From positions 1 through 21,766 of IMG/VR virus record IMGVR_UViG_3300033977_000062: a stretch of DNA of 21,766 bases; one strand, given 5' to 3'. Of this stretch, positions 379-21,756 are shown one piece after another. Position 1 is the first letter of the stretch. Each line of letters opens with the position of its first letter. The notes beneath the pieces were generated by a model. That model was given only the letters and a program-made list of their open reading frames with translations. It was not told where the DNA came from and did not search any database. Made by a program: the position numbers and the translations under genes. Source of the DNA: a virus.

Positions 379-1149
379 TCATCTTCCTGCTCCAAGACTA
401 GTCAGTATATGAGTAACACCACTTGAAATAGTTGGCAGAAAACATGCAATTATAGCCGCTGATTGAGCACTAGCATAAGATTCACCGATTGGATTAATAT
501 TACCACTCACACTACCACCAGAAATAACGTATCCCACAACTCCACCAATATAGTTACCACCAGAAGATATATAATAATCGAGAGTATTCCAACCTGTTCC
601 AGTTATAGACCAACTGGTTTCAGTCCCACCATAATAGCCATCTCCACCAGCAATACATAAATCGGTTCCACTAGTGGAAACGGAGTTAGTGGTCCAAGGA
701 GCGCTAGATGAAGTAGTTAGACTATTATTTACGTTGGAGCCATCAAATGGACTACTTATAGAAACGCCACTCCAGCCAAATGCAAAGCAAATGGAGTAAT
801 AACTACCACTGCAAGTAAAAGTTTGGGATGATGTTACTATAGGATTTACAACATACCAAAGGCATATTTGTCCGGTATTACTATCTGATTCTAACGTTGA
901 TGGTCCTAAAATCCAATTATTACTTCCTGTACTGTCTGAAGCATTTCCATTCCCGCATTCTGCTAAACTATCACCATATGATTCATTGACCATGACTAGT
1001 AATGTTGCACCTACCATATTAACAGATGGGGAGGTAGCACTATTACCACTACCCGAATTTGTCCACGCTACATGATTAATTAAAGTCGGTGTGGCATACA
1101 ATTTGAGAGAAGTGAACAATATAAATATCAGGCAAGAAACACGTTTCAT
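379..1149 (-). CDS. Exported Ser/Gly/Thr-rich beta-sandwich-like protein
   Basis: 256 aa from ATG 1149, which overlaps the upstream stop as ATGA. A Met three codons further upstream (1158) lies inside the previous gene and is less likely. Residues 1-20 (MKRVSCLIFILFTSLKLYA) form a signal peptide. The mature part is rich in Ser, Gly, Thr and Asn with spaced Cys, and alternates hydrophobic strands with polar turns, as in the beta-rich adhesin or virion proteins common in metagenomic phages. No catalytic motif is recognised. Its place after the portal in the late operon suggests a virion-associated or host-surface protein, but an exported lysogeny or adhesion factor is equally possible. Confidence 0.75.
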   Translation of the reverse strand: MKRVSCLIFILFTSLKLYATPTLINHVAWTNSGSGNSATSPSVNMVGATLLVMVNESYGDSLAECGNGNASDSTGSNNWILGPSTLESDSNTGQICLWYVVNPIVTSSQTFTCSGSYYSICFAFGWSGVSISSPFDGSNVNNSLTTSSSAPWTTNSVSTSGTDLCIAGGDGYYGGTETSWSITGTGWNTLDYYISSGGNYIGGVVGYVISGGSVSGNINPIGESYASAQSAAIIACFLPTISSGVTHILTSLGAGR

Positions 1150-2012
1150 TGGTACCATACATTCACCACAGGACCAGTATTACAGGATGAACCACTTTTA
1201 GGAGTCGTTTCTGAAGCAATATAAATATATGAAGAAAAGTTCGATATTGCTACTGGTGATGGAGCTAAATTTGCGGCACCTGTAGCGGGGATTCCTAGTG
1301 CAATTGCCGGATTGGTTGTCCCCAAAGTTACAGAGTTAGTATTAAAGAACTCTACATAACAAACAGAACTATTTGGGTTATATATATAATAACCATAAAG
1401 ATTTCCAGCAGAACCTTTAACCGACGTGGGACTTGTTATTGCACCACTATAAAATAGTGAAGTTGCATAACTAGCACTAGTTGATGGTAGAGAATTAACA
1501 TTGAAACTCGTATTGCCTATGCTACCAATACTATTAGTACCGGTAGGTAACGCACTAGAAATACCTACATTACCAATAGTATTAGTTCCAGCAGGCAACG
1601 CAGCATTAACAGCAAAACCGGTATTGGTTATACCACCAATAGTATTAGTTCCTGAAGGTAAAGCACCACTAATAGAGAAGCCAGTATTGGTTATACCACC
1701 AATTGTATTTGTGCCAGCAGGTAAAGCATTAGCAATAGAACTTATTAACACCCTTCCATTACTATCCAATTGAACAGCACCCATATAACCATTAGATAAT
1801 GTTGGTAAAGTACTACTATACTTACCACCAACAAACGTTGCATAACCTGGCGCTGACGTATTGACGCCACTAACACTATTATTTGACCCACCACCAGATG
1901 ACCCACCACCTTGTTGAAGTTGTGCAATGAGAGGAACAATGATAAATAAAGAAATTACTAGCACAACTAACCAAATTGGAAGTCTAAATTTAAGTTTTTC
2001 TTCGATATTCAT
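1146..2012 (-). CDS. Membrane-anchored repeat protein (LPAGTN repeats), fibre-like
   Basis: 288 aa. Residues 12-31 (about PIWLVVLVISLFIIVPLIAQ) form one membrane anchor, followed by a Gly/Ser-rich linker (GGGSSGGGS). Residues about 95-173 hold four tandem copies of an LPAGTNTIG-type unit of 16-21 residues, a repeat seen in phage fibre and virion proteins. The C-terminal part (about 175-288) is a beta-rich domain with two Cys (SSVCYVEFF and SSCNTG). The start overlaps the preceding stop (ATGA at 2012-2009), so translation is probably coupled. The combination of an N-terminal membrane anchor and virion-type repeats is odd for a tail protein. Alternatives are a phage-encoded surface protein or a fibre with a hydrophobic attachment segment. 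Confidence 0.75.
   Translation of the reverse strand: MNIEEKLKFRLPIWLVVLVISLFIIVPLIAQLQQGGGSSGGGSNNSVSGVNTSAPGYATFVGGKYSSTLPTLSNGYMGAVQLDSNGRVLISSIANALPAGTNTIGGITNTGFSISGALPSGTNTIGGITNTGFAVNAALPAGTNTIGNVGISSALPTGTNSIGSIGNTSFNVNSLPSTSASYATSLFYSGAITSPTSVKGSAGNLYGYYIYNPNSSVCYVEFFNTNSVTLGTTNPAIALGIPATGAANLAPSPVAISNFSSYIYIASETTPKSGSSCNTGPVVNVWYQ
1494..1727 (-). repeat. Four tandem degenerate coding repeats (63, 63, 48, 60 nt)
   Basis: Within the 288-aa gene, four units each begin with codons for A-L-P-(A/S/T)-G-T-N-(T/S)-I-G. Units one and two share the downstream ITNTGF stretch. The lengths are multiples of three and the copies differ mostly at third positions, so this is a protein repeat and not a CRISPR or DNA-binding array. 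Confidence 0.85.
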
Positions 2013-2335: not shown

Positions 2336-4578
2336 TTCTTTACCACCTCACGATGTTGCGCTTTTTTAGCTTGTTCCATTGCAATCATCATTCTCATTTG
2401 AGCTTCTTGTTTCTTCTCAAATGTTTGTTGTAGAATTTCTAAATAAGCTCTACAGTTTGCATAACCAGGAGGATTAGTACGTCTTTCTTGCATACCTTTT
2501 TCAGAACTTAAAAAGTATTTGAATACTGCAATTTGAACTTCTTCGTCATCAACTGTTTCATCAGGTTTAATTGTTGGTGATGATTGCATTTCAGCAGTTT
2601 CTAAATTTGGCACTTCTTCTGGGGCACTCTTTAATAATTCTTTAATTACAACCAACGCTTTATATCGTTGTGCTTCACCAGGGATATACAAATCAGGGAA
2701 GCCCAACGCTTCCGTGATAATATGAGCATTCTCAGGATGACCAACAACTGATTCAACCATTGGATTTTGTAATTGAATCAGTTGCATTAAGAGATTCATC
2801 TTTTGATCTGAAGAAATTGGGAAGTTACTAGAACTTTCTGGTTCAAGATGTGCTTTACCAACTAATTCTTCTGGTGTGACAAGCACATTTTCAAATTGAC
2901 CAGGGTGATTCTTAACTACTTCTTTCATTGGGTCATTATATCTTTTAACATCTTCTGCCATTGCGGTGGTGCCCTTATCAACAACTTGTTTCCACCAATC
3001 ATCAAGGTACGTATAAGCTAATGAAAGGCGCGCAAGTGCTCTTTGACCACTTTGCACGTATTCACCAAGAGTTCTACTCTTTCCTTCGGAGGCACCCCCA
3101 TATATCGAAGGATAGTCACCAAGAACAAACTGTCCATCTTCATCAAGTCTTTCTTGGAAAGTTTCAATTTCCTTTGATGGGGTGGCGAGCTTTTGTTCAT
3201 ATAAACCTTCACCAATTGAAGAAAATTCAGGTGGCTTTCTAACAGGAATGATTTTACCCGGTGAACTATCCAAATTACCAAACAAATCTCGGTTAATAAT
3301 TCTCGTGTCAGCTAACATCATGGGAATACCATACTCAATTGTCTGTATGGTTAGATTCGCCATTTGATTAGTCATTTCCTGAAGAGATTCATAACCTTTA
3401 CCAATCGGGTCAGAATGAATAAATGTACTTGGGCCAGATTTTCCAATCGTCCAACATTTATCCATACATTCATTATCAAAATAAATGATCTTCTTGTTAT
3501 TTAGATCAAAATGAATCCCTTCAGGAAATTCTTTCTGCAAGAATTTCCTGACCTTAGAGTTTGATTCATACTTAGTATTAGTAGAATCCATATTATACAT
3601 CCAAGGACGCAACCAAACTCTTTTAATTGAACAAAGATTTACATCTTCAGAACCACCACGCCATGCTGTTGTATAAGAACTTGGAGTACGTGCCCATCTT
3701 TCTTTTGCAGCACCAGCATCAGGAATTAAATCTTCCGCGAAATCGGGGTACATTTCGCGGGCTTGTGCATAGTGAATATCTTCATAATCAATAAGATAAC
3801 CAAAATCTTTCTGTTTCTTACAATAATAAGCGACCTTTACTTGTAACGGGCCTTTGATTTCTAGTTTCTCACGCTCTTTTGGAATATCTTTGAAACCATC
3901 TTCAACTACTTGTTGTTCTTCAAAGGGTTCTTCAATACCTTGCATGTTACAAGTTGGACAAGTTGGTATTTCTGTGGTACTAGGAGTAGATTGTAATTCA
4001 GTTCCACACTCGGGACAAGTGACTTTAGTGCCCTTAACCATTTCGGTCTTGTACTTCTTAATTTTGTGAACACCATAAGCCTTATCACCTTCACGAAAAC
4101 GATAAGCAGCAACCAATCCTTGATTATAAAGTTTTAATAGTGCATCAATAAAAACTAATTTAGCTTTAACATGCTTTTGATAAATAATTGCAAGATGATT
4201 CTTTGCTTGCGACGCAGTTAAATCATCAGGCTCATCAGCATCATCTGGGAAAAATTCTGTAACTGGAACTTGTTGAGATAAGGCACTTATGATACTTTCA
4301 CCATGCGCTTTATATTTATTAATTACATAATCATAAAATGGCCCTACACTTTCGCGCATCTCCTCACCAACTATCCCTACTTGTAGGCCAGTGTCGTGTA
4401 CCTCCCAGTCCTGCTTAATCTCATTCCAGAATAAATATTGTATTCCGTGCCAAAATTCTTCGAGTTTCTTCCACGTCTTAATCTGAAGTTGACGAACATA
4501 CTCGTCTTCCATCTCCGATGCAGTTACAAGATCAATAAGGAAAGCGGTAACATCTTCTGGAAGTTCTTTCTTAGGCAT
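2332..4578 (-). CDS. Portal protein with internal zinc ribbon
   Basis: 748 aa, the size of large podovirus-type portals, forming the ring at the DNA-entry vertex. The N-terminal third is helical and acidic. Residues about 185-210 carry CPEC and CPTC pairs separated by about 18 residues, a zinc-ribbon insertion. The middle has SPGKIIPVRKPP, a loop typical of the portal core. Long helical segments follow (GEYVQSGQRALARLSLAY), and the C-terminus is a charged coiled coil, as in P22-like barrels. It starts in a TAATG overlap with the HAD gene and ends in ATGA overlap with the next gene. A perfect 13-bp inverted repeat lies at 3521-3551. The portal call rests on size, overall style and co-location with TerL; the fold was not computed. 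Confidence 0.75.
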   Translation of the reverse strand: MPKKELPEDVTAFLIDLVTASEMEDEYVRQLQIKTWKKLEEFWHGIQYLFWNEIKQDWEVHDTGLQVGIVGEEMRESVGPFYDYVINKYKAHGESIISALSQQVPVTEFFPDDADEPDDLTASQAKNHLAIIYQKHVKAKLVFIDALLKLYNQGLVAAYRFREGDKAYGVHKIKKYKTEMVKGTKVTCPECGTELQSTPSTTEIPTCPTCNMQGIEEPFEEQQVVEDGFKDIPKEREKLEIKGPLQVKVAYYCKKQKDFGYLIDYEDIHYAQAREMYPDFAEDLIPDAGAAKERWARTPSSYTTAWRGGSEDVNLCSIKRVWLRPWMYNMDSTNTKYESNSKVRKFLQKEFPEGIHFDLNNKKIIYFDNECMDKCWTIGKSGPSTFIHSDPIGKGYESLQEMTNQMANLTIQTIEYGIPMMLADTRIINRDLFGNLDSSPGKIIPVRKPPEFSSIGEGLYEQKLATPSKEIETFQERLDEDGQFVLGDYPSIYGGASEGKSRTLGEYVQSGQRALARLSLAYTYLDDWWKQVVDKGTTAMAEDVKRYNDPMKEVVKNHPGQFENVLVTPEELVGKAHLEPESSSNFPISSDQKMNLLMQLIQLQNPMVESVVGHPENAHIITEALGFPDLYIPGEAQRYKALVVIKELLKSAPEEVPNLETAEMQSSPTIKPDETVDDEEVQIAVFKYFLSSEKGMQERRTNPPGYANCRAYLEILQQTFEKKQEAQMRMMIAMEQAKKAQHREVVKK
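3521..3551. repeat. Perfect 13-bp inverted repeat inside the portal gene
   Basis: TCAGGAAATTCTT (3521-3533) and its exact reverse complement (3539-3551) are separated by a 5-base loop. A second perfect stem in the same gene, CCGCGAAAT at 3735-3743 paired with 3752-3760, has an 8-base loop. Both lie within uninterrupted coding sequence. Confidence 0.85.
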
Positions 4579-6601: not shown

Positions 6602-7013
6602 TAGTTTGTTCTTCAACAGGTTTCTCCTGCTTTAATCTTTCTTCTTCCTGAGCTTTCAACTTTTTATCCCAATACTCACTTTGCTTTGCAAGAATATCAT
6701 CAATCTTACCCTGCAATGGACCACCTTTACTATAAATCTTTTGTAACTTAGCTTGTGCTGTTCTCCAAGTTTCTGACATTACTATTGGCTTATTATCAAT
6801 TTCTACCTTCTCATAATCTCCTGAAGGAATTAGGCCGAACTTTCTAAAGATCACACCTTTAAGCTGAATGTTTTCCTCTTGTAGCGACTTGTTCCATTCT
6901 TGAAGGGTTAAAATTCTACCTTCCATTATTGATAGAGAATGTTCCAAATCCTTAGTGTGTTGAGTGATTTCTTTATTAATTCTAAAAAATTGCAATAATT
7001 TATCTGCCCACAC
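6576..7013 (-). CDS. Coiled-coil protein, 145 aa
   Basis: GTG start at 7013 with GAGAGG five bases upstream; it overlaps the TerL stop by 14 bases. Residues about 15-50 form a heptad-like coiled coil (ITQHTKDLEHSLSIMEGRIL), the middle holds SETWRTAQAKLQKIYSK, and the tail is a second charged helix (LKAQEEERLKQEKPVEEQ). No membrane segment. Tight coupling downstream of TerL and upstream of the spanin candidate places it in a packaging/lysis neighbourhood. No endolysin signature (no catalytic Glu/Asp/Thr or amidase motifs) is seen. Function unknown. Confidence 0.7.
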   Translation of the reverse strand: MWADKLLQFFRINKEITQHTKDLEHSLSIMEGRILTLQEWNKSLQEENIQLKGVIFRKFGLIPSGDYEKVEIDNKPIVMSETWRTAQAKLQKIYSKGGPLQGKIDDILAKQSEYWDKKLKAQEEERLKQEKPVEEQTNEVVAGSN

Positions 7014-8649
7014 GGCGACCTCTCACTCTAGTTAAGTTTGGTACTGCCATTACTTCAGCGAGTTCTTCAGCTCTTTCTCGCCTAAGATTCATAAAGTACT
7101 GATTATAATCTTGTGTTTCTTCTAAAGTCTTTTCAATCTCTTCATGCTTCTTTTGCTTTTCAAAAGCCCTTGCTGAATCATTAACGTAAGCATCAACTTC
7201 TTTAAGAAGGTATCTTACATCATCATAAGGGTCATCACCATCAAATTCTTTAACATCTTCTTTTCTATTCTCATCATAAACACAAGATGAAATAACTTCT
7301 TTCAGTAATGGACAGGTATCAAAAATCTGCAACTTTGGGAGATGTTTTATGTCATCAGGTTCATCCGGTTTGAATTGATTAATATACTTATAATACTCTT
7401 CCATCCCCTTCAATCGAAGAATTTGCATAGCAACCTGCTCGTCGTAATGAGCAGTTACATCATATTTAATTGGTCTTGGGATAAATCTTAGATACTCATG
7501 TAAAAGCATCTTACCAGATATTCTATCATTGTCAGCAACGTGAAGTAATGAACTTAATTTATCTCCGAGACCTTCCGAAACTTGTTGAAAAATTGTCTTT
7601 TTCTCACCACGATTTTGTTTTGCAGAAGGATCAATAACTACCGAAACGATGTTATCGTATTGGCTTAATCGAGAAATCTCTGATGCCCAATGCTCAATGT
7701 AAGTCTTTTTAACCCCGTATTCTCGAAAAGCATAAACTCTTTTGAAAGGTGAAATTGCTCCCCATAAAGCATAAGCCAACGCTGCAAATCCCCAATCAAT
7801 TGCGAGGATTTTGGGCCAGTAGTCAGGTATTGTAAATGGGTCAATAATGTGTACGGCATTTTCCGGCTCACCTTCAACATGCTTGATACGATATTCAGTG
7901 AATACTTGACCTTCAAAAGCATTCCAATCAGCGTACTTCTTAGCTCTTTTTTCTGCTTCTGGTAGAAGTTCTAAAGAATCAAGATATTCTTTGAGACGTT
8001 CTTTAGGAACTTTAGTATTATCTGTTGGAAGGGCTTGAATAAAGGTTCTTAACTTATTGGTAAGTTTATCACGAATTATCGTACCCGATGGTACTTTGTC
8101 AACTTGCCATCTGTTTCTAACCCACGTATTTCCAATGTTACCAGGATTAGTTCCAGCGCGAGTAAAAGCAGGAAGATCAGAGACAGAACTCCTGCAACGC
8201 GAACCAGTAAGATAAAGATATTGAAACTCAGTAAAGGAAGTAAGTTCATCCCAACCAACATAATTATATTCATCGGTGTCATACTTCCTTACATCGGATT
8301 CATGTTCAATATGGCCCGCAAAGATTCTAGCTCCACTTGGCCATGTCCAACTTCTTTTAGTACCATTCCATGAGGCACCTGAACTCTCATAAAATGGCAT
8401 CATTCTTGGAATAATTTCACGTTCTAACTCTGGAAATGTTCTTCGTAAAAGAAGTCCTTTGAATCTCGGATGGTCTATAAAACTCTTATCACTACCAATA
8501 CACTTACTTGTTAAAGGAACAAGTCCAATAACTTCAGTCTTGCCACCAAAAGCAGCACCACCATATAATCCTTCAAAGATTTCGTATGGAAGAGACAGGA
8601 ATTTTTCTTGTTTTATACTAGGGGACCATTCTTGGACTTCTTCAGGCAT
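7000..8649 (-). CDS. terL: Terminase large subunit (packaging ATPase/nuclease)
   Basis: 549 aa, normal for TerL. The N-terminal ATPase has a Walker A-like GGAAFGGKT at residues 30-38, LLLRRTFPELE (adenine/coupling region) near 67-77, and Walker B YNYVGWDE near 128-135, followed by GSRCRSS and a TNPGN coupling motif. The C-terminal RNase-H-like nuclease begins at KILAIDWGF (first acidic residue) and continues with VVIDPSAKQ and a C-terminal acidic region near DDPYDDVRYLL. It translocates DNA into the prohead through the portal and cuts concatemers. ATG 8649 follows a 144-base gap containing a paired CGCGCGCG element. Confidence 0.93.
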   Translation of the reverse strand: MPEEVQEWSPSIKQEKFLSLPYEIFEGLYGGAAFGGKTEVIGLVPLTSKCIGSDKSFIDHPRFKGLLLRRTFPELEREIIPRMMPFYESSGASWNGTKRSWTWPSGARIFAGHIEHESDVRKYDTDEYNYVGWDELTSFTEFQYLYLTGSRCRSSVSDLPAFTRAGTNPGNIGNTWVRNRWQVDKVPSGTIIRDKLTNKLRTFIQALPTDNTKVPKERLKEYLDSLELLPEAEKRAKKYADWNAFEGQVFTEYRIKHVEGEPENAVHIIDPFTIPDYWPKILAIDWGFAALAYALWGAISPFKRVYAFREYGVKKTYIEHWASEISRLSQYDNIVSVVIDPSAKQNRGEKKTIFQQVSEGLGDKLSSLLHVADNDRISGKMLLHEYLRFIPRPIKYDVTAHYDEQVAMQILRLKGMEEYYKYINQFKPDEPDDIKHLPKLQIFDTCPLLKEVISSCVYDENRKEDVKEFDGDDPYDDVRYLLKEVDAYVNDSARAFEKQKKHEEIEKTLEETQDYNQYFMNLRRERAEELAEVMAVPNLTRVRGRRVGR

Positions 8650-10403: not shown

Positions 10404-10521
10404 CTGGGACCAAATCGCACGCTGAATTTGGTCTCAGATTCTTTGTTAATTTTCCCTTATGTACTACTGGGGTGCGCCACCCCACAAGCGCACCCCATCT
10501 TAATTTCCCCGGATAAGGGAA
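10404..10521 (-). other. Hairpin-rich leader of the late operon
   Basis: Three nested or adjacent inverted repeats lie in 118 bases: CTGGGACCAAAT (10404-10415) with 10426-10437 (one non-match, 10-base loop); GGGGTGCGC (10469-10477) with 10488-10496 (perfect 9 bp, 10-base loop); and TTCCCTTAT (10452-10460) with 10513-10521 (perfect 9 bp) enclosing the second. In the late transcript this would sit between the HNH gene and the next start. It may act in processing, stability or partial termination; there is no clear U-run. Confidence 0.6.
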
Positions 10522-11193: not shown

Positions 11194-11296
11194 TAGCCTA
11201 CAAAAGTAAACTACCTGTTTAGCTTACAAAACTAGCCTACATTTCTAGCTTATATTGTAGCCTATTGATGTAGCTTAATTGTGTAGCTTACTTCTG
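11194..11296. repeat. Iteron array, 13-bp period, consensus TAGCYTAC
   Basis: Units start at 11194, 11207 (degenerate), 11220, 11233, 11246, 11258, 11271 and 11284: TAGCCTAC, TAAACTAC, TAGCTTAC, TAGCCTAC, TAGCTTAT, TAGCCTAT, TAGCTTAA, TAGCTTAC. Spacing is 13 bases except one of 12. Further copies in both orientations continue to about 11457 (for example 11380 and 11392). Tandem short repeats of this type bind replication initiators; a regulator-binding array is the alternative. Confidence 0.8.
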
Positions 11297-11297
11297 T

Positions 11298-11405
11298 GCG
11301 CGTGTCCGTCGGCTACATCGCGCGCATAGTTATGTTAGCTACTTCACTTGCTCATTAATCTATGCTTACAATACTATTCTAGCTTACATTGTAGCCGACA
11401 CGCGC
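11298..11405. repeat. Long-loop inverted repeat inside the iteron region
   Basis: GCGCGTGT (11298-11305) plus CGGCTAC (11310-11316), separated by a four-base bulge, match GTAGCCG (11391-11397) plus ACACGCGC (11398-11405): 15 pairs around a 74-base loop. The left arm shares GTGCGCGTGTC with the elements at 21,398 and 21,703. Confidence 0.7.
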
Positions 11406-12076: not shown

Positions 12077-12220
12077 ATGACATTTGCTTGTGAACAACTC
12101 CAGAAATGTACAAGGCCATTTCTGGGAAGAAACATCCTAGCTCGCGTAATGACTTACCTACGCGAGATTAGGCAATGGGAATCTTATTGCCTAGTTTACA
12201 ACCTGAGACAATCTCTTTAG
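12077..12220 (+). CDS. Small ORF, 47 aa, overlapping three hairpins
   Basis: ATG 12077 with AAGGAAGG about eight bases upstream. Sequence begins MTFACEQLQKCTRPFLGRN, basic with four Cys, and ends VYNLRQSL. Because three strong stems fill the same DNA (12100-12193), either the ORF is real and its mRNA highly structured, or the segment is a non-coding RNA and the frame is incidental. Confidence 0.45.
   Translation: MTFACEQLQKCTRPFLGRNILARVMTYLREIRQWESYCLVYNLRQSL
12100..12193 (+). other. Three tandem perfect stem-loops, possible structured RNA
   Basis: Stem 1 is CCAGAAATG 12100-12108 with 12117-12125 (9 bp, 8-base loop). Stem 2 is CTCGCGTA 12141-12148 with 12159-12166 (8 bp, 10-base loop). Stem 3 is TAGGCAAT 12169-12176 with 12186-12193 (8 bp, 9-base loop). 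All arms match exactly. Confidence 0.65.
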
Positions 12221-12389: not shown

Positions 12390-12423
12390 ATGGGCTGTTG
12401 CCGATGTTCTGACAACAGCCCAT
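12390..12423. terminator. Bidirectional intrinsic terminator between convergent genes
   Basis: ATGGGCTGTTG (12390-12400) pairs perfectly with 12413-12423 across a 12-base loop. On the minus strand the stem is followed by TTTTTT (12386-12381), a classic terminator for the convergent gene; on the plus strand the following ATTATTCTATT is weaker. Confidence 0.85.
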
Positions 12424-12443
12424 TATTCTATTCCGAAGAATCG

Positions 12444-12926
12444 TTATTCAGATTCTTCGGTTTCCTCTTCCTCTTCACCTACGTTGATTTTACTTGCGTC
12501 AAACTCCACGGCGTTCAATTCCGCCGTGGTAAAGATTCCACCTTTAGAATAAGCATCTTTCGCAATTCCAAAAGCGGTTTCAGCAGTAATAGTAGGTGTG
12601 CCATCTTCCGAAAATGACTTAGAATCGCGCACCATCTTACCTGCCATTGCATAGATCTTCTTCGCAGGGCCAAGCAAGACCATATATGCAGCCTGACGTG
12701 CGGCTGCCTTACCTTTTGCAACAGCATTCACGTTCCATTGCTCTAAAAGTTCTTCCATGTTACCTTTGTATTCCTGCACGAGCAAATCCTCACTAGTCCC
12801 ATACAATTTCACTTTTGCAGTCTTTGTTACTTTCTTACCTGCTTTCTTTACTGTCACGGGAAACTCAAAAGTTCCCGTGGAAGTAGGTGTAATTTTATCT
12901 GTCGCCGTTTGTGGGGTTGTGCCCAT
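12444..12926 (-). CDS. Hypothetical protein, 160 aa, acidic tail
   Basis: ATG 12926 is chosen: AAGGGA lies about nine bases upstream, and the promoter -10 at 12988-12993 puts the transcript start near 12981, so Mets further upstream in the frame cannot all be used. The N-terminal half is basic and beta-like (FEFPVTVKKAGKKVTKTAKV, KLYGTSEDLL), the middle helical and Ala-rich (GKAAARQAAYMVLLGPAKKI), and the tail very acidic (EEEEETEESE), as in some ssDNA-mimic or single-strand-binding proteins. Sole minus-strand gene in the origin region, with its own operator-covered promoter. No family recognised. Confidence 0.75.
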   Translation of the reverse strand: MGTTPQTATDKITPTSTGTFEFPVTVKKAGKKVTKTAKVKLYGTSEDLLVQEYKGNMEELLEQWNVNAVAKGKAAARQAAYMVLLGPAKKIYAMAGKMVRDSKSFSEDGTPTITAETAFGIAKDAYSKGGIFTTAELNAVEFDASKINVGEEEEETEESE

Positions 12927-12980
12927 AGTGATTGGTCCCTTTCTCTGTGATGACGTTTGGTTCGAGCTACGTTGCATCAT

Positions 12981-13016
12981 GCTGAGAATCGTACCACAGA
13001 TTCTCAGCGATGTCAA
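12981..13016 (-). promoter_or_regulatory. Leftward promoter covered by a 10-bp palindrome
   Basis: TTGACA (13011-13016), a 17-base spacer ending TGG, then TACGAT (12988-12993, minus strand) form an extended -10 promoter. GCTGAGAATC (12981-12990) and its exact complement (12999-13008) span the spacer, -10 and start point, a likely operator. Confidence 0.7.
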
Positions 13017-14492: not shown

Positions 14493-14641
14493 GCATTAAA
14501 CTGTCACCAAAACTAGCAAAGTTAGCACAAGAGAATGAAGAATTTAGAAAGGATTTACATTGTGCTATGTTCGCTGGATTTGATGCAACACAATACTGTA
14601 TCAATAAGTGGATACTGAGATTGGAGAATCTTTCAAAATGA
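14477..14641 (+). CDS. Small protein, 54 aa
   Basis: ATG 14477 with GGAGG (14469-14472 region) about five bases upstream. MSTKVSIKLSPKLAKLAQEN then an acidic/aromatic part (FRKDLHCAMFAGFDATQYCI) and a C-terminal helix. Ends in ATGA overlap with the next gene. Absence of a known motif leaves function open. Confidence 0.6.
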   Translation: MSTKVSIKLSPKLAKLAQENEEFRKDLHCAMFAGFDATQYCINKWILRLENLSK

Positions 14642-14805
14642 ACATCTCAAATGAAAAACTAGACAAGATTGACCTTCGATTCAAAGTTTCAGAATGTGAA
14701 AGATTGATTCAAGAAAGACGACTTGAAATCGAAGCATTAACAACCCTGAAACTAGAATTTGAAGAGGAAATAAAAAAGAGATTTGAAGAAAATAAGGATA
14801 ACTAA
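14638..14805 (+). CDS. Small coiled-coil protein, 55 aa
   Basis: ATG 14638 overlaps the upstream stop (ATGA); a longer GTG-started frame from 14608 is less likely. MNISNEKLDKIDLRFKVSEC then a continuous acidic coiled coil (ERLIQERRLEIEALTTLKLE). The stop overlaps the helicase start (TAATG), so it is probably translated with the helicase and could be its partner. Function unknown. Confidence 0.65.
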   Translation: MNISNEKLDKIDLRFKVSECERLIQERRLEIEALTTLKLEFEEEIKKRFEENKDN

Positions 14806-16460
14806 TGCTTTATATCACTTATAAATGCAAAGTTTGTGGAAAAAACGTAACTGAAGTTAGTTCTTTCAAACTAGCAGGAAAGTTAATACGTAAGCTGTCA
14901 TGCAATCATTCTCAAATTGAAGATCGAATTACCGAAAGTGAAGCTCTTTCAGCGGAAAGCATTATTTCCGCTGATAAAAAGAAATTATATAATTTTCAAG
15001 TTGAAGGGGTTAAGTTTGCAGAGCGCGCGAATCTTAATGTCTTATTTCAAGACGAAATGGGCTTAGGAAAGACAATTCAAATTCTTGCTGCGCTGAAACT
15101 TCACGCGGCAGAATCTTTACCTGCCGCGATAATTACTAAAGGTCAAATCGCGCCACAATGGAGTATTGAAATAGGACGCTGGTTAGGCCCCACCACGACA
15201 AGACTCGTGGTGGATAAATCAAAAGACAATCATTTAATTCCACCTAGACTCCAATTCTACATTTTCTCATACGACATCTTAAGACGTTTTGTTCCAAAGA
15301 AAAGGGTAAAAAACTACTACGGCACCGAAACTAGTGTCGAGGATTACGAAGTAATACGCGACTGGTTCACAAAACTTGGTATTAAAAGTATCGTGTTTGA
15401 TGAATGTCAGTATATTAAAAATTCAGAATCTCAACGCGGTAAAGTGGCTAGAGAACTAGCTGCTAATTTGAAGTATAAATTAGCAGCAAGTGGGACACCA
15501 ATAAAAAATAACTCCGCTGAATTCTTTCCAATACTTAACATTCTAGCCCCGCACGTTTTTAGAACACGTGCGGGGTTTGAAAGCGAACATTGTGATAGAA
15601 TTTGGACAGGTTATAATTACAAAATTGGTGGTCTACGTGACCCAGAATATTTTCATCAATTAACAAAAGATTTTATCATTAGACGTGAAAGATCAGAAGT
15701 TGAACTAGATTTTCCAGAAAAAAATAGGCAATTTAGATACTATGATTTAGGTGATGAAGTACAAGATTCCTACAACAAACTTGAAGAGCAATTTGTTGAG
15801 GAGTATCAAAAAGACGGTCAAAGTAATTTTGAAAGAGCAACAAGTACGCTTGCCTGGCTTAATCGAATGCGCCACTTAACAGGTTTAGCTAAAGTTGATA
15901 ACGTCGTCGATCTAATCGACGAGCATATAGAGTCTACTGACCGCAAAGTTGCGGTCTTTACACACCACATTGATGTAGCAGACTTAATTCAAAACAAAAT
16001 GAACATCTCGTTAACAAATCTTAACGAGATGCTTGGTAAACATTATTCACCATGCTATCGCATGTATGGTGGAACGGGACAAGATATATTTGATGTTGGC
16101 CAGAAGTTTCAAGCTGATAAAGACGCGCGAGTTTTAATCGGGCCAACCCTTGCAGCGGGTGAAGGATTAAACCTACAAGAAATAGGTGATTATATCCTAG
16201 TTGAAAGAGAATGGAATCCACCAAATGAAGAACAAGTTGAAGGACGTTTCATAAGAATTGGTAGCACTCATAGAATGGTTAATGGTACTTACGTTTTAGC
16301 AATAGGTACTGTTGACGAAAAGTTTACTAAACTTGTCGAAATGAAAAGGGCCATCATAGAACAAACTCATGGGAAAGATTATAATTGGGAAGAAAGCTTT
16401 TTGTTAAAAGAACTTGCTGAGCAGATTGTGAAAGCAAGAATAAAAAAGAATGGGGGGTAA
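14805..16460 (+). CDS. SNF2-type DNA helicase/translocase with N-terminal zinc site
   Basis: 551 aa. Cys8, Cys11, Cys33 and His35 suggest a small zinc ribbon. The helicase core begins near 60 with YNFQVEGVKF (Q-motif-like). Motif I is DEMGLGKT (83-90), motif II is DECQ (199-202, an SNF2-like DExx variant), motif III is SGTP (near 229), motif V is TLAAGEGLNLQ and motif VI is QVEGRFIRIG (near 480). SNF2 proteins translocate on dsDNA and remodel protein-DNA or replication structures; phage versions are often near recombination genes, as here. Coding DNA carries at least eight perfect inverted repeats with short loops (14949-16031), which is very unusual. Confidence 0.9.
   Translation: MLYITYKCKVCGKNVTEVSSFKLAGKLIRKLSCNHSQIEDRITESEALSAESIISADKKKLYNFQVEGVKFAERANLNVLFQDEMGLGKTIQILAALKLHAAESLPAAIITKGQIAPQWSIEIGRWLGPTTTRLVVDKSKDNHLIPPRLQFYIFSYDILRRFVPKKRVKNYYGTETSVEDYEVIRDWFTKLGIKSIVFDECQYIKNSESQRGKVARELAANLKYKLAASGTPIKNNSAEFFPILNILAPHVFRTRAGFESEHCDRIWTGYNYKIGGLRDPEYFHQLTKDFIIRRERSEVELDFPEKNRQFRYYDLGDEVQDSYNKLEEQFVEEYQKDGQSNFERATSTLAWLNRMRHLTGLAKVDNVVDLIDEHIESTDRKVAVFTHHIDVADLIQNKMNISLTNLNEMLGKHYSPCYRMYGGTGQDIFDVGQKFQADKDARVLIGPTLAAGEGLNLQEIGDYILVEREWNPPNEEQVEGRFIRIGSTHRMVNGTYVLAIGTVDEKFTKLVEMKRAIIEQTHGKDYNWEESFLLKELAEQIVKARIKKNGG
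14949..16031 (+). repeat. Cluster of perfect short-loop inverted repeats within the helicase gene
   Basis: Arms (length, loop): TCAGCGGAAA 14949/14965 (10, 6); CGCGGCAG 15104/15121 (8, 9); CCACCACGA 15190/15205 (9, 6); GCTGCTAATTT 15459/15477 (11, 7); CCCCGCACGT 15547/15566 (10, 9); TCGTCGAT 15904/15915 (8, 3); GACCGCA 15939/15950 (7, 4); CATCTCGTTAA 16004/16021 (11, 6). All are exact, read through in frame. Confidence 0.85.
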
Positions 16461-16463
16461 AGT

Positions 16464-16712
16464 ATGAACTACTTTATCAATTCAATTGAGGTCAATGAAA
16501 CAGACTTCAATGACTATATCCACGAGTTGCAAGATGTTTACGAGAGAGAACTAGAAGTAATGGCATTTGAGTTGAATATCTCAACTCAAGATGCCGCATT
16601 GATACTTTACCTCCGTTCAAGATCACGTTGGACACAAGAAAAAGAGGATTATTTATTAAAATTGGCCAGAGAACACAAGAAACTACCTAATGTATTTTCT
16701 GGTGAGTTTTAA
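16464..16712 (+). CDS. Hypothetical protein, 82 aa
   Basis: ATG 16464 with a G-run (AATGGGGGGTAAAGT) upstream as a poor but plausible site. Acidic helical protein: MNYFINSIEVNETDFNDYIH, ELQDVYERELEVMAFELN, and a C-terminal LKLAREHKKLPNVF. A 9-bp perfect hairpin (TTGAGTTGA 16567-16575 with 16581-16589) lies inside. Function unknown. Confidence 0.65.
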   Translation: MNYFINSIEVNETDFNDYIHELQDVYERELEVMAFELNISTQDAALILYLRSRSRWTQEKEDYLLKLAREHKKLPNVFSGEF

Positions 16713-17927: not shown

Positions 17928-18785
17928 ATGCCTAAAAGTGTCCTAATTTTAGACAGTCAACTTCTAAACAATTTTCAAGATTGTGAAGCAAAGTTTTATT
18001 ATAACTTTGTCAGGAATATTAGACCACCGGTAAAGCCAGAAGCACTTGATAAAGGTGATCTAGTTCACTATATCTTGAAATTTCATTATCGCTTGATTAA
18101 ACATAATCAAACGAATTGTAACAATGGTAAAATCCGTACTATACCCTATAACAAGATCATTGAGATTTGTGTTGTGAAAGCAGAGAAGTATCTGCTTTCG
18201 CTTGATTTAGATGTTGATCTAGCTAATGAGGTTATAAAAACTTACGGTCAATATGCGGAATACTATAAAAATTGTAACTGGTCAATCTTGGAAGTCGAAA
18301 AACCGTTTGCAAAGGTGCTTTATGATTCAGACGATCTTAAAATCATTTATGTTGGAATCATTGATCTCTTAACTTCAATTGCTATTGTTGATACTAAATC
18401 ATCTTCAAGACGCGGAGAGCCTTCCGCACTCTCCAATCAATTTATGGGCTATGCTTGGGCATTTAATGTATTCAATGTTGTTATTAATAAAGTTGGCCTC
18501 CAAAAAACGTTGAAGCCAGAAGAAAAGTTTGAAAGGTATACTAAATCATATCCAAAAGCAATCATTGATGAATGGGTTAATAATACTATCACCATCGGCA
18601 AAAACATTTTTACGTTTTTAACGGATGTGACAAGCATGAAGAGGAATTTTACTTCATGCGACAAGTATGCAGGTTGTGTATTCCAGCAAATCTGCGAAAC
18701 TGTACCAGAGGCGCGCGAGTTTGTTATTGAAAGGAATTATCAATTGGTTCCAGAGTGGCGGCCAATTAAGGGGTTGGAAATATGA
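17928..18785 (+). CDS. Cas4/RecB-like PD-(D/E)XK nuclease with Cys cluster
   Basis: 285 aa. ATG 17928 has a strong AGGAGG site. The N-terminus has LLNNFQDCEAKFYYN (Cys19) and DKGDLVHYILKFHY (the GxLxH element); the core has IIYVGIIDLL then AIVDTKSSS (catalytic Asp and D-x-K); the C-terminus has Cys244, Cys250 and Cys256 (CDKYAGCVFQQIC). One N-terminal plus three C-terminal Cys match iron-sulphur-cluster nucleases of the Cas4/AddB type. It likely degrades or resects DNA ends for recombination. Perfect hairpins lie at 18176-18199 (9 bp) and 18634-18659 (8 bp). Confidence 0.85.
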   Translation: MPKSVLILDSQLLNNFQDCEAKFYYNFVRNIRPPVKPEALDKGDLVHYILKFHYRLIKHNQTNCNNGKIRTIPYNKIIEICVVKAEKYLLSLDLDVDLANEVIKTYGQYAEYYKNCNWSILEVEKPFAKVLYDSDDLKIIYVGIIDLLTSIAIVDTKSSSRRGEPSALSNQFMGYAWAFNVFNVVINKVGLQKTLKPEEKFERYTKSYPKAIIDEWVNNTITIGKNIFTFLTDVTSMKRNFTSCDKYAGCVFQQICETVPEAREFVIERNYQLVPEWRPIKGLEI

Positions 18786-19768: not shown

Positions 19769-20498
19769 ATCAGGAACGGGCAAGACAATTGCTGCCGCTT
19801 CATTTCCAGAACCGATTAAGATGTTATCATGTGATGGTAGAGTTGAACCATTACTTCATTTTCCAAAAGTGCAAAACCGTGATATTGACGTTGACATTTA
19901 TAACAAGTACTCTGACATTATCCATTCGTTAGAAGAACTAACAAATCATAACGATTTTCAAACCGTAGTAGTTGACGGTTTGATGGCATACTCACGCCTT
20001 GTCATAAGTCATATCATTGAACAGCGTGGTGGTCAAACAGAAGTTAAAATTAAGGGCGAAAAAGAACCTTTAACAGTTGGTGGCATTCCTATAATGGCCA
20101 TTAACGAATATAAAGGTGAAAGTTCTGCCTTGTTCAATCTTGTGATGGCATTGCGCGTGTTAAAAGAACACGGAGCGAATATTATACTTACAGCTCACGT
20201 GGTAATCTCTGAACAACAAGTATTAGGTGGTTCAACTCGTGTCACAAGACAACTACTTACTGGCGGGAATAAAATAGGTGCAGAGATTCCTACTTATTTC
20301 GACGAAATATACCATTTCTACGGAAATGCCCCTGGCCTTGCTGAAACCCCAAGATTTTATGCTATTACACAAGGCACGGGTGATGATTATGCAAGAACTT
20401 CTTTCTACGGCTTGCAGAAAGAGATAGACTTTACGGATGGCTTATTCTATGATGAACTGTTGAAAGCAATTGATTCGATTGGAGAGTTTCAAAAGTGA
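19713..20498 (+). CDS. Sak4/AAA_24-like recombination ATPase
   Basis: 261 aa from ATG 19713 with GGAAAGGA upstream; the longer TTG-started frame is less likely. Walker A is GESGTGKT (18-25), Walker B is TVVVDGL (84-90). Later elements (NIILTAHVV, GGSTRVTRQLLTGG) fit RecA-like ATPases of the phage Sak4/AAA_24 group that assist single-strand annealing or strand exchange. Next to the Cas4-like nuclease and the ssDNA-binding candidate it forms a recombination module. Ends in GTGA overlap with the HNH gene. Confidence 0.8.
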   Translation: MKLSQIKKMKNLMILMKGESGTGKTIAAASFPEPIKMLSCDGRVEPLLHFPKVQNRDIDVDIYNKYSDIIHSLEELTNHNDFQTVVVDGLMAYSRLVISHIIEQRGGQTEVKIKGEKEPLTVGGIPIMAINEYKGESSALFNLVMALRVLKEHGANIILTAHVVISEQQVLGGSTRVTRQLLTGGNKIGAEIPTYFDEIYHFYGNAPGLAETPRFYAITQGTGDDYARTSFYGLQKEIDFTDGLFYDELLKAIDSIGEFQK

Positions 20499-21397: not shown

Positions 21398-21471
21398 TTG
21401 TGCGCGTGTCTGACAACATCTTGCTAACTTTAGTCAATGGCTAAAATACAAGTGCGCTGGCACGCGCACAA
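21398..21471 (+). repeat. GTGCGCGTGTC-armed inverted repeat (copy D)
   Basis: TTGTGCGCGTGTC (21398-21410) pairs with GGCACGCGCACAA (21459-21471), 12 exact pairs plus one G-T, around a 48-base loop that holds a TTTAG/CTAAA stem. It lies between the ssDNA-binding gene and the next gene. Same arms as copy E. Confidence 0.8.
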
Positions 21472-21698: not shown

Positions 21699-21702
21699 TT
21701 TT

Positions 21703-21756
21703 GTGCGCGTGTCTATGAAATATGATCTTCTCTCCTCAAAGAGTAGGCACGCGCAC
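21703..21756 (+). repeat. GTGCGCGTGTC-armed inverted repeat (copy E)
   Basis: GTGCGCGTGTC (21703-21713) pairs with GGCACGCGCAC (21746-21756), one G-T pair, around a 32-base loop. Its arms are nearly identical to copy D, while the loops differ, so the arms themselves are conserved. Confidence 0.8.

Follow-up and report, generated by a model that had tools for sequence, protein, structure and literature searches.

The window, i.e., the whole stretch of DNA that was analyzed, is a 21.8-kb virus record of a tailed phage with a GC content of 37.4%. Its leftward genes are structural, and its rightward genes serve replication, encoding an SNF2 helicase, a PD-(D/E)XK nuclease, a Sak4-like ATPase, and an SSB-like protein; no DNA polymerase was recognized among the searched proteins of this fragment. 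The helicase matches SNF2-rel_dom (E 2.8e-33) and Helicase_C (E 4.7e-07) in Pfam, as well as the PHROG 62 DNA helicase (E 3e-74). The putative portal protein has no match in Pfam or PHROG. The main features of the locus, including the exact hairpins discussed below, are collected in Table 1.

Several other repeats are present in the window. The 12-mer TGTGCGCGTGTC is found in three exact copies and one copy with a single mismatch, all apparently intergenic, while 0.03 are expected, and it is a candidate promoter or operator motif. An exact direct repeat of 15 bases, CAAAATGAACATCTC, occurs at 14634-14648 (ATG upstream of the SNF2 gene) and at 15995-16009 within the gene, the latter copy overlapping the first bases of the hairpin at 16004. 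The protein predicted from 1146-2012 (minus strand), which has no Pfam match, bears several near-identical repeats of the ALPAGTNTIGGITNTGF type.

Table 1. Genes, 12-mer sites, and exact hairpins of the window (coordinates are those of the window unless a contig is named).
Feature	Position	Direction	Arm (bp)	Loop (bases)	Remarks
Putative portal gene, 748 aa	2332-4578	leftward			named by its position next to the terminase
Terminase large subunit gene	7000-8649	leftward			
SNF2-family helicase gene, 551 aa	14805-16460	+			reading frame open; ATPase/helicase motifs present
12-mer TGTGCGCGTGTC	11295-11306, 21399-21410, 21702-21713	+			
12-mer TGTGCGCGTGTC	21459-21470	-			
Hairpin	3521-3551		13	5	in putative portal gene
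Hairpin	3735-3760		9	8	in putative portal gene
Hairpin	14949-14974		10	6	SNF2 gene; sole SNF2 stem that has a hairpin counterpart among the relatives (G003:24268-24293)
Hairpin	15104-15128		8	9	SNF2 gene; 3′ arm encodes A, most relatives have L
Hairpin	15190-15213		9	6	SNF2 gene; departures from the family in both arms and the loop
Hairpin	15459-15487		11	7	SNF2 gene; 3′ arm encodes K225 and A228, directly before the SGTP motif
Hairpin, GC-rich	15547-15575		10	9	SNF2 gene; -18.3 kcal/mol as RNA
Hairpin	15904-15922		8	3	SNF2 gene
Hairpin	15939-15956		7	4	SNF2 gene; 3′ arm encodes A, relatives have V, T, or C
Hairpin	16004-16031		11	6	SNF2 gene; 3′ arm at an insertion of ~6 residues missing in nearly all relatives
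Hairpin	16567-16589		9	5	in 82-aa ORF immediately downstream of the SNF2 gene
Hairpin	18176-18199		9	6	in nuclease gene
Hairpin	18634-18659		8	10	in PD-(D/E)XK nuclease gene
Hairpin	19958-19983		9	8	in Sak4-like gene

An earlier note on this DNA, made from the sequence alone, drew attention to at least eight exact inverted repeats with loops of 3-9 bases packed inside the SNF2 gene, five of them with arms of at least 9 bp, and all eight, including these five, have been confirmed. Several of the stems were also described there as GC-rich in AT-rich DNA, and 43 of the 74 arm bases are G or C (58% vs. 37% in the gene, p = 2e-4). Folded as RNA, each stem is strongly stable, with energies from -8.9 to -18.3 kcal/mol and z-scores from -3.9 to -7.5. 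Third codon positions pair with each other in five of the eight stems; this codon phase has been set aside as evidence because base composition favors it in short repeats (PMC6649704). None of the eight has the make-up of an intrinsic terminator: only the segment 16002-16033 bears a T-rich tail, which is weak and lies on the antisense strand.

Outside the SNF2 gene, such stems proved to be more numerous than the five initially listed, since 13 non-overlapping ones with arms of at least 9 bp are found there; those overlooked lie at 10468, 11031, 11059, 12433, 12981, 13346 (a TA run), 13675, and 19958. Moreover, the stem at 12100, which had been placed in coding DNA, falls where no coding gene is evident. 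The stems at 12433 and 13675, plus one with a longer loop at 12390, are terminator-like (a GC-rich stem followed by a T run). Within 12390-12460, where the leftward gene 12444-13016 ends, two strong neighboring hairpins bear T-rich tails on opposite strands, an arrangement that resembles a two-way terminator.

From base composition, the whole window should contain 1.15 exact stems whose arms measure at least 9 bp and whose loops span 3-10 bases, in line with the roughly one per 21.8 kb estimated by eye in the earlier note, and 18 are observed. For the SNF2 gene, 2000 synonymous shuffles that keep both the protein and the codon usage gave on average 1.53, 0.57, 0.28, and 0.09 stems with arms of at least 7, 8, 9, and 10 bp, respectively, where the gene itself has 8, 7, 5, and 4. 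Codon-preserving shuffles had been suggested from the outset as a check, and the hairpin excess withstood them: none of the 2000 reaches the observed count at any arm cut-off, the maximum for arms of at least 9 bp being three. Relative to the synonymous shuffles, the SNF2 gene thus has a ~18-fold excess, and the genes of the window taken together exceed chance 12-fold. Singling out the SNF2 gene was a post hoc choice, and its comparison with the other window genes (five stems in 1.66 kb vs. five in 13.9 kb, p = 4e-4) is to be read as such.

A background was provided by 179 other viral loci (2.24 Mb) that carry a related SNF2, terminase, Sak4-like, or nuclease gene. Their coding sequences contain 140 stems with arms of at least 9 bp vs. 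67.1 expected by chance, i.e., a 2.1-fold excess. At this background rate, 1.7 coding stems would be expected in the window, whereas 10 are seen (p = 1e-5). When the 125 viral loci measuring 8 kb or more are ranked by coding-stem density, the window comes third after the contigs L090 (14.3 kb) and L145 (11.7 kb), where the density is 20- and 14-fold over chance, i.e., as extreme as in the window.

The SNF2 gene was compared in protein and codon alignments with 21 relatives of ~34-44% identity. At seven of the eight hairpin positions, none of the 21 has a matching hairpin. Searches of viral and genome collections with the helicase and one neighboring protein as queries revealed no close relative of the gene, and relatives of the nuclease and Sak4-like neighbors were found only at ~26-51% identity. 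The exception among the eight is the hairpin at 14949-14974, for which the related contig G003 carries a counterpart of 8 bp over the same codons; in it, three successive pairs differ in both of their bases. Here, flanking S-x-E and S-x-D residues fix most of the remaining pairs, so the chance of this lone case is modest, not tiny; we estimate it at about 1/64 to 1/256 per site, a figure that takes no account of there being eight sites and many relatives. The G003 hairpin could come from a quasipalindrome that was converted more than once or could be a real structure; its paired changes also fit a maintained structure. Relatives lacking paired changes in the stems had been named in advance as a refuting observation; such changes are indeed lacking at seven of the eight stems, which speaks against selected mRNA structure, and are present at 14949-14974. 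Overall, G003, which carries the SNF2 gene, is poor in hairpins: its 44.7 kb contain a single stem with arms of 9 bp or more, and 2.2 are expected.

The opposite end of the window, with the portal gene, is covered by one close relative, L003 (~80% identical). Both portal stems are missing in it: L003 differs from the window at 14 of the 31 positions of 3521-3551 and at 9 of the 26 positions of 3735-3760, both spans exceeding the average divergence, and its 7.1 kb are devoid of short-loop stems with arms of 9 bp or more. As judged from the relatives compared, the SNF2 hairpins are specific to this lineage.

The hairpins are accompanied by changes in the encoded proteins. When each residue was scored against the profile of its family, those encoded by the SNF2 arms were 0.95 bits less family-like than the rest of the protein. 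In the same columns, control members of the SNF2 family gave 0.01 (sd 0.21, minimum -0.45 vs. -0.95 in the window), and none of them shows the shift seen in the window. With randomly placed hairpins as a control, p = 0.005 for SNF2 and p = 0.0023 for SNF2, nuclease, Sak4-like, and portal proteins pooled; the departure comes from SNF2 and the nuclease, and the Sak4-like and portal proteins show it weakly. In the clearest cases, conserved residues seem to have been overwritten by one arm. At 15459-15487, K225 and A228 stand where relatives carry a hydrophobic residue and L/V/M, respectively; at 18634-18659, SMK in the 5′ arm stands in place of the x-F/W-P of most relatives, and the 3′ arm encodes the conserved TSC. 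The hairpin at 16004-16031, with its 3′ arm at an insertion, also belongs to the most telling examples. Amino acid changes in arms are expected if one arm is copied as the reverse complement of the other, unlike a tuning of silent sites for RNA folding. Two further points were abandoned. In the Sak4 “DGLM” segment, the M was discarded as evidence, since the changed position lies outside the arm, and a uniform direction of copying was dropped, since the derived arm is the 3′ one at 15459 and 15939 and the 5′ one at 18634.

The excess of stems in the SNF2 gene is limited to those with exact Watson–Crick pairing. At 9 bp, exact stem positions number 9 vs. 0.38 expected, and stems with one or two G-U pairs (2 vs. 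1.57) or with one non-pair (5 vs. 3.64) stay at the chance level. As selection for RNA structure should tolerate G-U pairs, the lack of their excess in the SNF2 gene argues against it. In the other genes of the window, 9-bp stems with G-U pairs (sense wobble, 16 vs. 6.2) and with A-C pairs (antisense wobble, 13 vs. 4.7) are both raised ~2.6-2.7-fold, and this equal rise, which decay at the DNA level would produce, indicates no preference for the sense RNA. Together, these patterns suggest a DNA-level process whose action in the SNF2 gene may be recent or repeated and whose products may have partly decayed in the other genes.

Two possible causes of the hairpins had been put forward in the earlier note, namely selected mRNA structures and template-switch mutation turning imperfect palindromes into perfect ones. 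It is the second that is better supported by the lineage specificity, by exact Watson–Crick pairing with no wobble excess in the gene, and by residues departing from the family. The hairpins are probably mutational products of local template switching (quasipalindrome conversion), which would be unusually frequent in this phage lineage. Such an event would start from two nearby stretches that are partly complementary by chance. During DNA replication or repair, the growing strand would fold back or jump to the other strand, write one arm with the other as template so that the two become reverse complements, and then return. The product would be a perfect short-loop inverted repeat with the changes clustered in the copied arm, and the spacer may become inverted. 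Purifying selection would have retained only those products in which the frame and the core motifs were preserved; the outcome would be most visible in the SNF2 gene. The high G+C content of the SNF2 stems would fit the need for a stable fold-back. For the window, the copying event itself is inferred.

Traces of the copying were sought by scanning for reverse-complement copies between related sequences. The window compared with L003 gave no excess over controls, probably because the source arm has diverged as well, and in other related pairs the same scan exceeded reversed and complemented controls only weakly. Clear inversions of the spacer are found only in L073 and L075, two related phage contigs bearing SNF2 genes, where the hairpin spacers read GTTCTCCCGGAGGGAGAAC vs. 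GTTCTCCCTCCGGGAGAAC and AGTTTTGAAACT vs. AGTTTCAAAACT. Spacer inversion is a known signature of template switching (PMC8604942), and these cases indicate that template switching acts in other SNF2-bearing phages.

The other cause considered in the earlier note, mRNA structures in the helicase transcript selected for stability, ribosome pausing, or protein binding and kept perfect by selection, is disfavored, and we regard it as unlikely. It would account for the strong RNA stability of every stem, for arms that are GC-rich for the gene, and for the G003 counterpart of 14949-14974 with its three paired changes. It is opposed by the seven positions that have neither a hairpin nor paired changes in the 21 relatives, where conserved placement with compensatory changes was not found, by the lack of a G-U excess in the SNF2 gene, and by arms that bear unusual amino acids rather than silent changes alone. 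The perfect arms might instead have arisen in vitro, by fold-back copying during library preparation that entered a low-coverage consensus. Such a sequencing or assembly artefact would agree with the knowledge of these hairpins from a single contig, with no close relative covering the SNF2 gene, and with both the alteration of conserved residues by the arms and the lack of an excess of imperfect stems in this gene. However, stems are spread unevenly along one and the same contig (the first 10 kb contain 2 and the remaining 11.8 kb contain 16, p = 0.003), all of them keep the reading frame, the other genes show an excess of decayed stems that an in vitro artefact would not yield, and a comparable excess is found in L090 and L145. 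We regard such an artefact as unlikely as well.

It might also be supposed that the window simply lies at the high end of an excess of short inverted repeats that is usual in prokaryotic and phage genomes, the rate in this lineage being nothing special. The 179 background loci already stand at 2.1 times chance, and the distribution is continuous, with L090, L145, and the window forming its tail; yet the window has 10 coding stems vs. the 1.7 given by the background rate, and the SNF2 gene by itself has five, making this explanation quite improbable. Finally, many hairpins in one region might bring to mind a REP- or RPE-like mobile palindromic element with copies inserted in genes, or protein-binding sites of shared sequence. 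A sequence common to the hairpins was rejected, as only 4 of 325 hairpin pairs have an 8-mer in common, and, except for 16004-16031, the hairpins lie within an aligned protein that shows no sizeable insertion; this last possibility is thus very remote.

The preferred explanation, template switching, is documented in E. coli with lacZ QP reporters (PMC7202029) and in yeast genes (PMC8604942), and it has been proposed as the origin of perfect RNA stems (PMC8794818). Quasipalindrome template switching was first proposed for a phage, according to the citation of Ripley 1982 in PMC8604942. The hairpins described here share with it perfect repeats with short spacers, multi-base changes in the arms, nonsynonymous effects, and the inferred arm-to-arm copying. 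They differ in that the event is deduced from distant relatives rather than from a before-and-after pair, and in a density within one gene that is far above an isolated event. The closest parallel is provided by the mitochondrial genes of nematomorphs, where perfect coding palindromes, with no excess of imperfect ones, undergo active arm conversion and are gained and lost between species (PMC6649704). As in the SNF2 gene, many perfect inverted repeats lie in protein genes and imperfect ones are not in excess. Nevertheless, nematomorph arms reach 284 bp and both encode conserved residues, whereas the arms here are 7-13 bp long and often encode aberrant residues; long perfect arms that are both conserved were not found among the hairpins of the window. 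A small general excess of inverted repeats of 6-9 bp in prokaryotic genes has been ascribed to template switching as well (Ladoukakis and Eyre-Walker 2008, described in PMC4060949). The arm lengths and the proposed cause are the same as here, but, as far as that description goes, the excess is small compared with the 12-fold and ~18-fold found here. The window is thus an extreme instance, in a phage gene, of an already known process.

It is conceivable, albeit doubtful, that the rate of template switching is raised in this lineage, owing to its own replication proteins or to a host without hairpin-suppressing nucleases, and that such switching, by rewriting short stretches within its replication genes, is a main route by which its proteins change. 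Short perfect hairpins in coding sequences are usually taken as RNA structure, whereas the conservation and wobble tests applied here point to mutation, and the protein is measurably changed as well. Should the rate prove to be specific to the lineage, one could test what causes template switching in phages, and caution would be needed in calling coding hairpins functional unless relatives have been compared.
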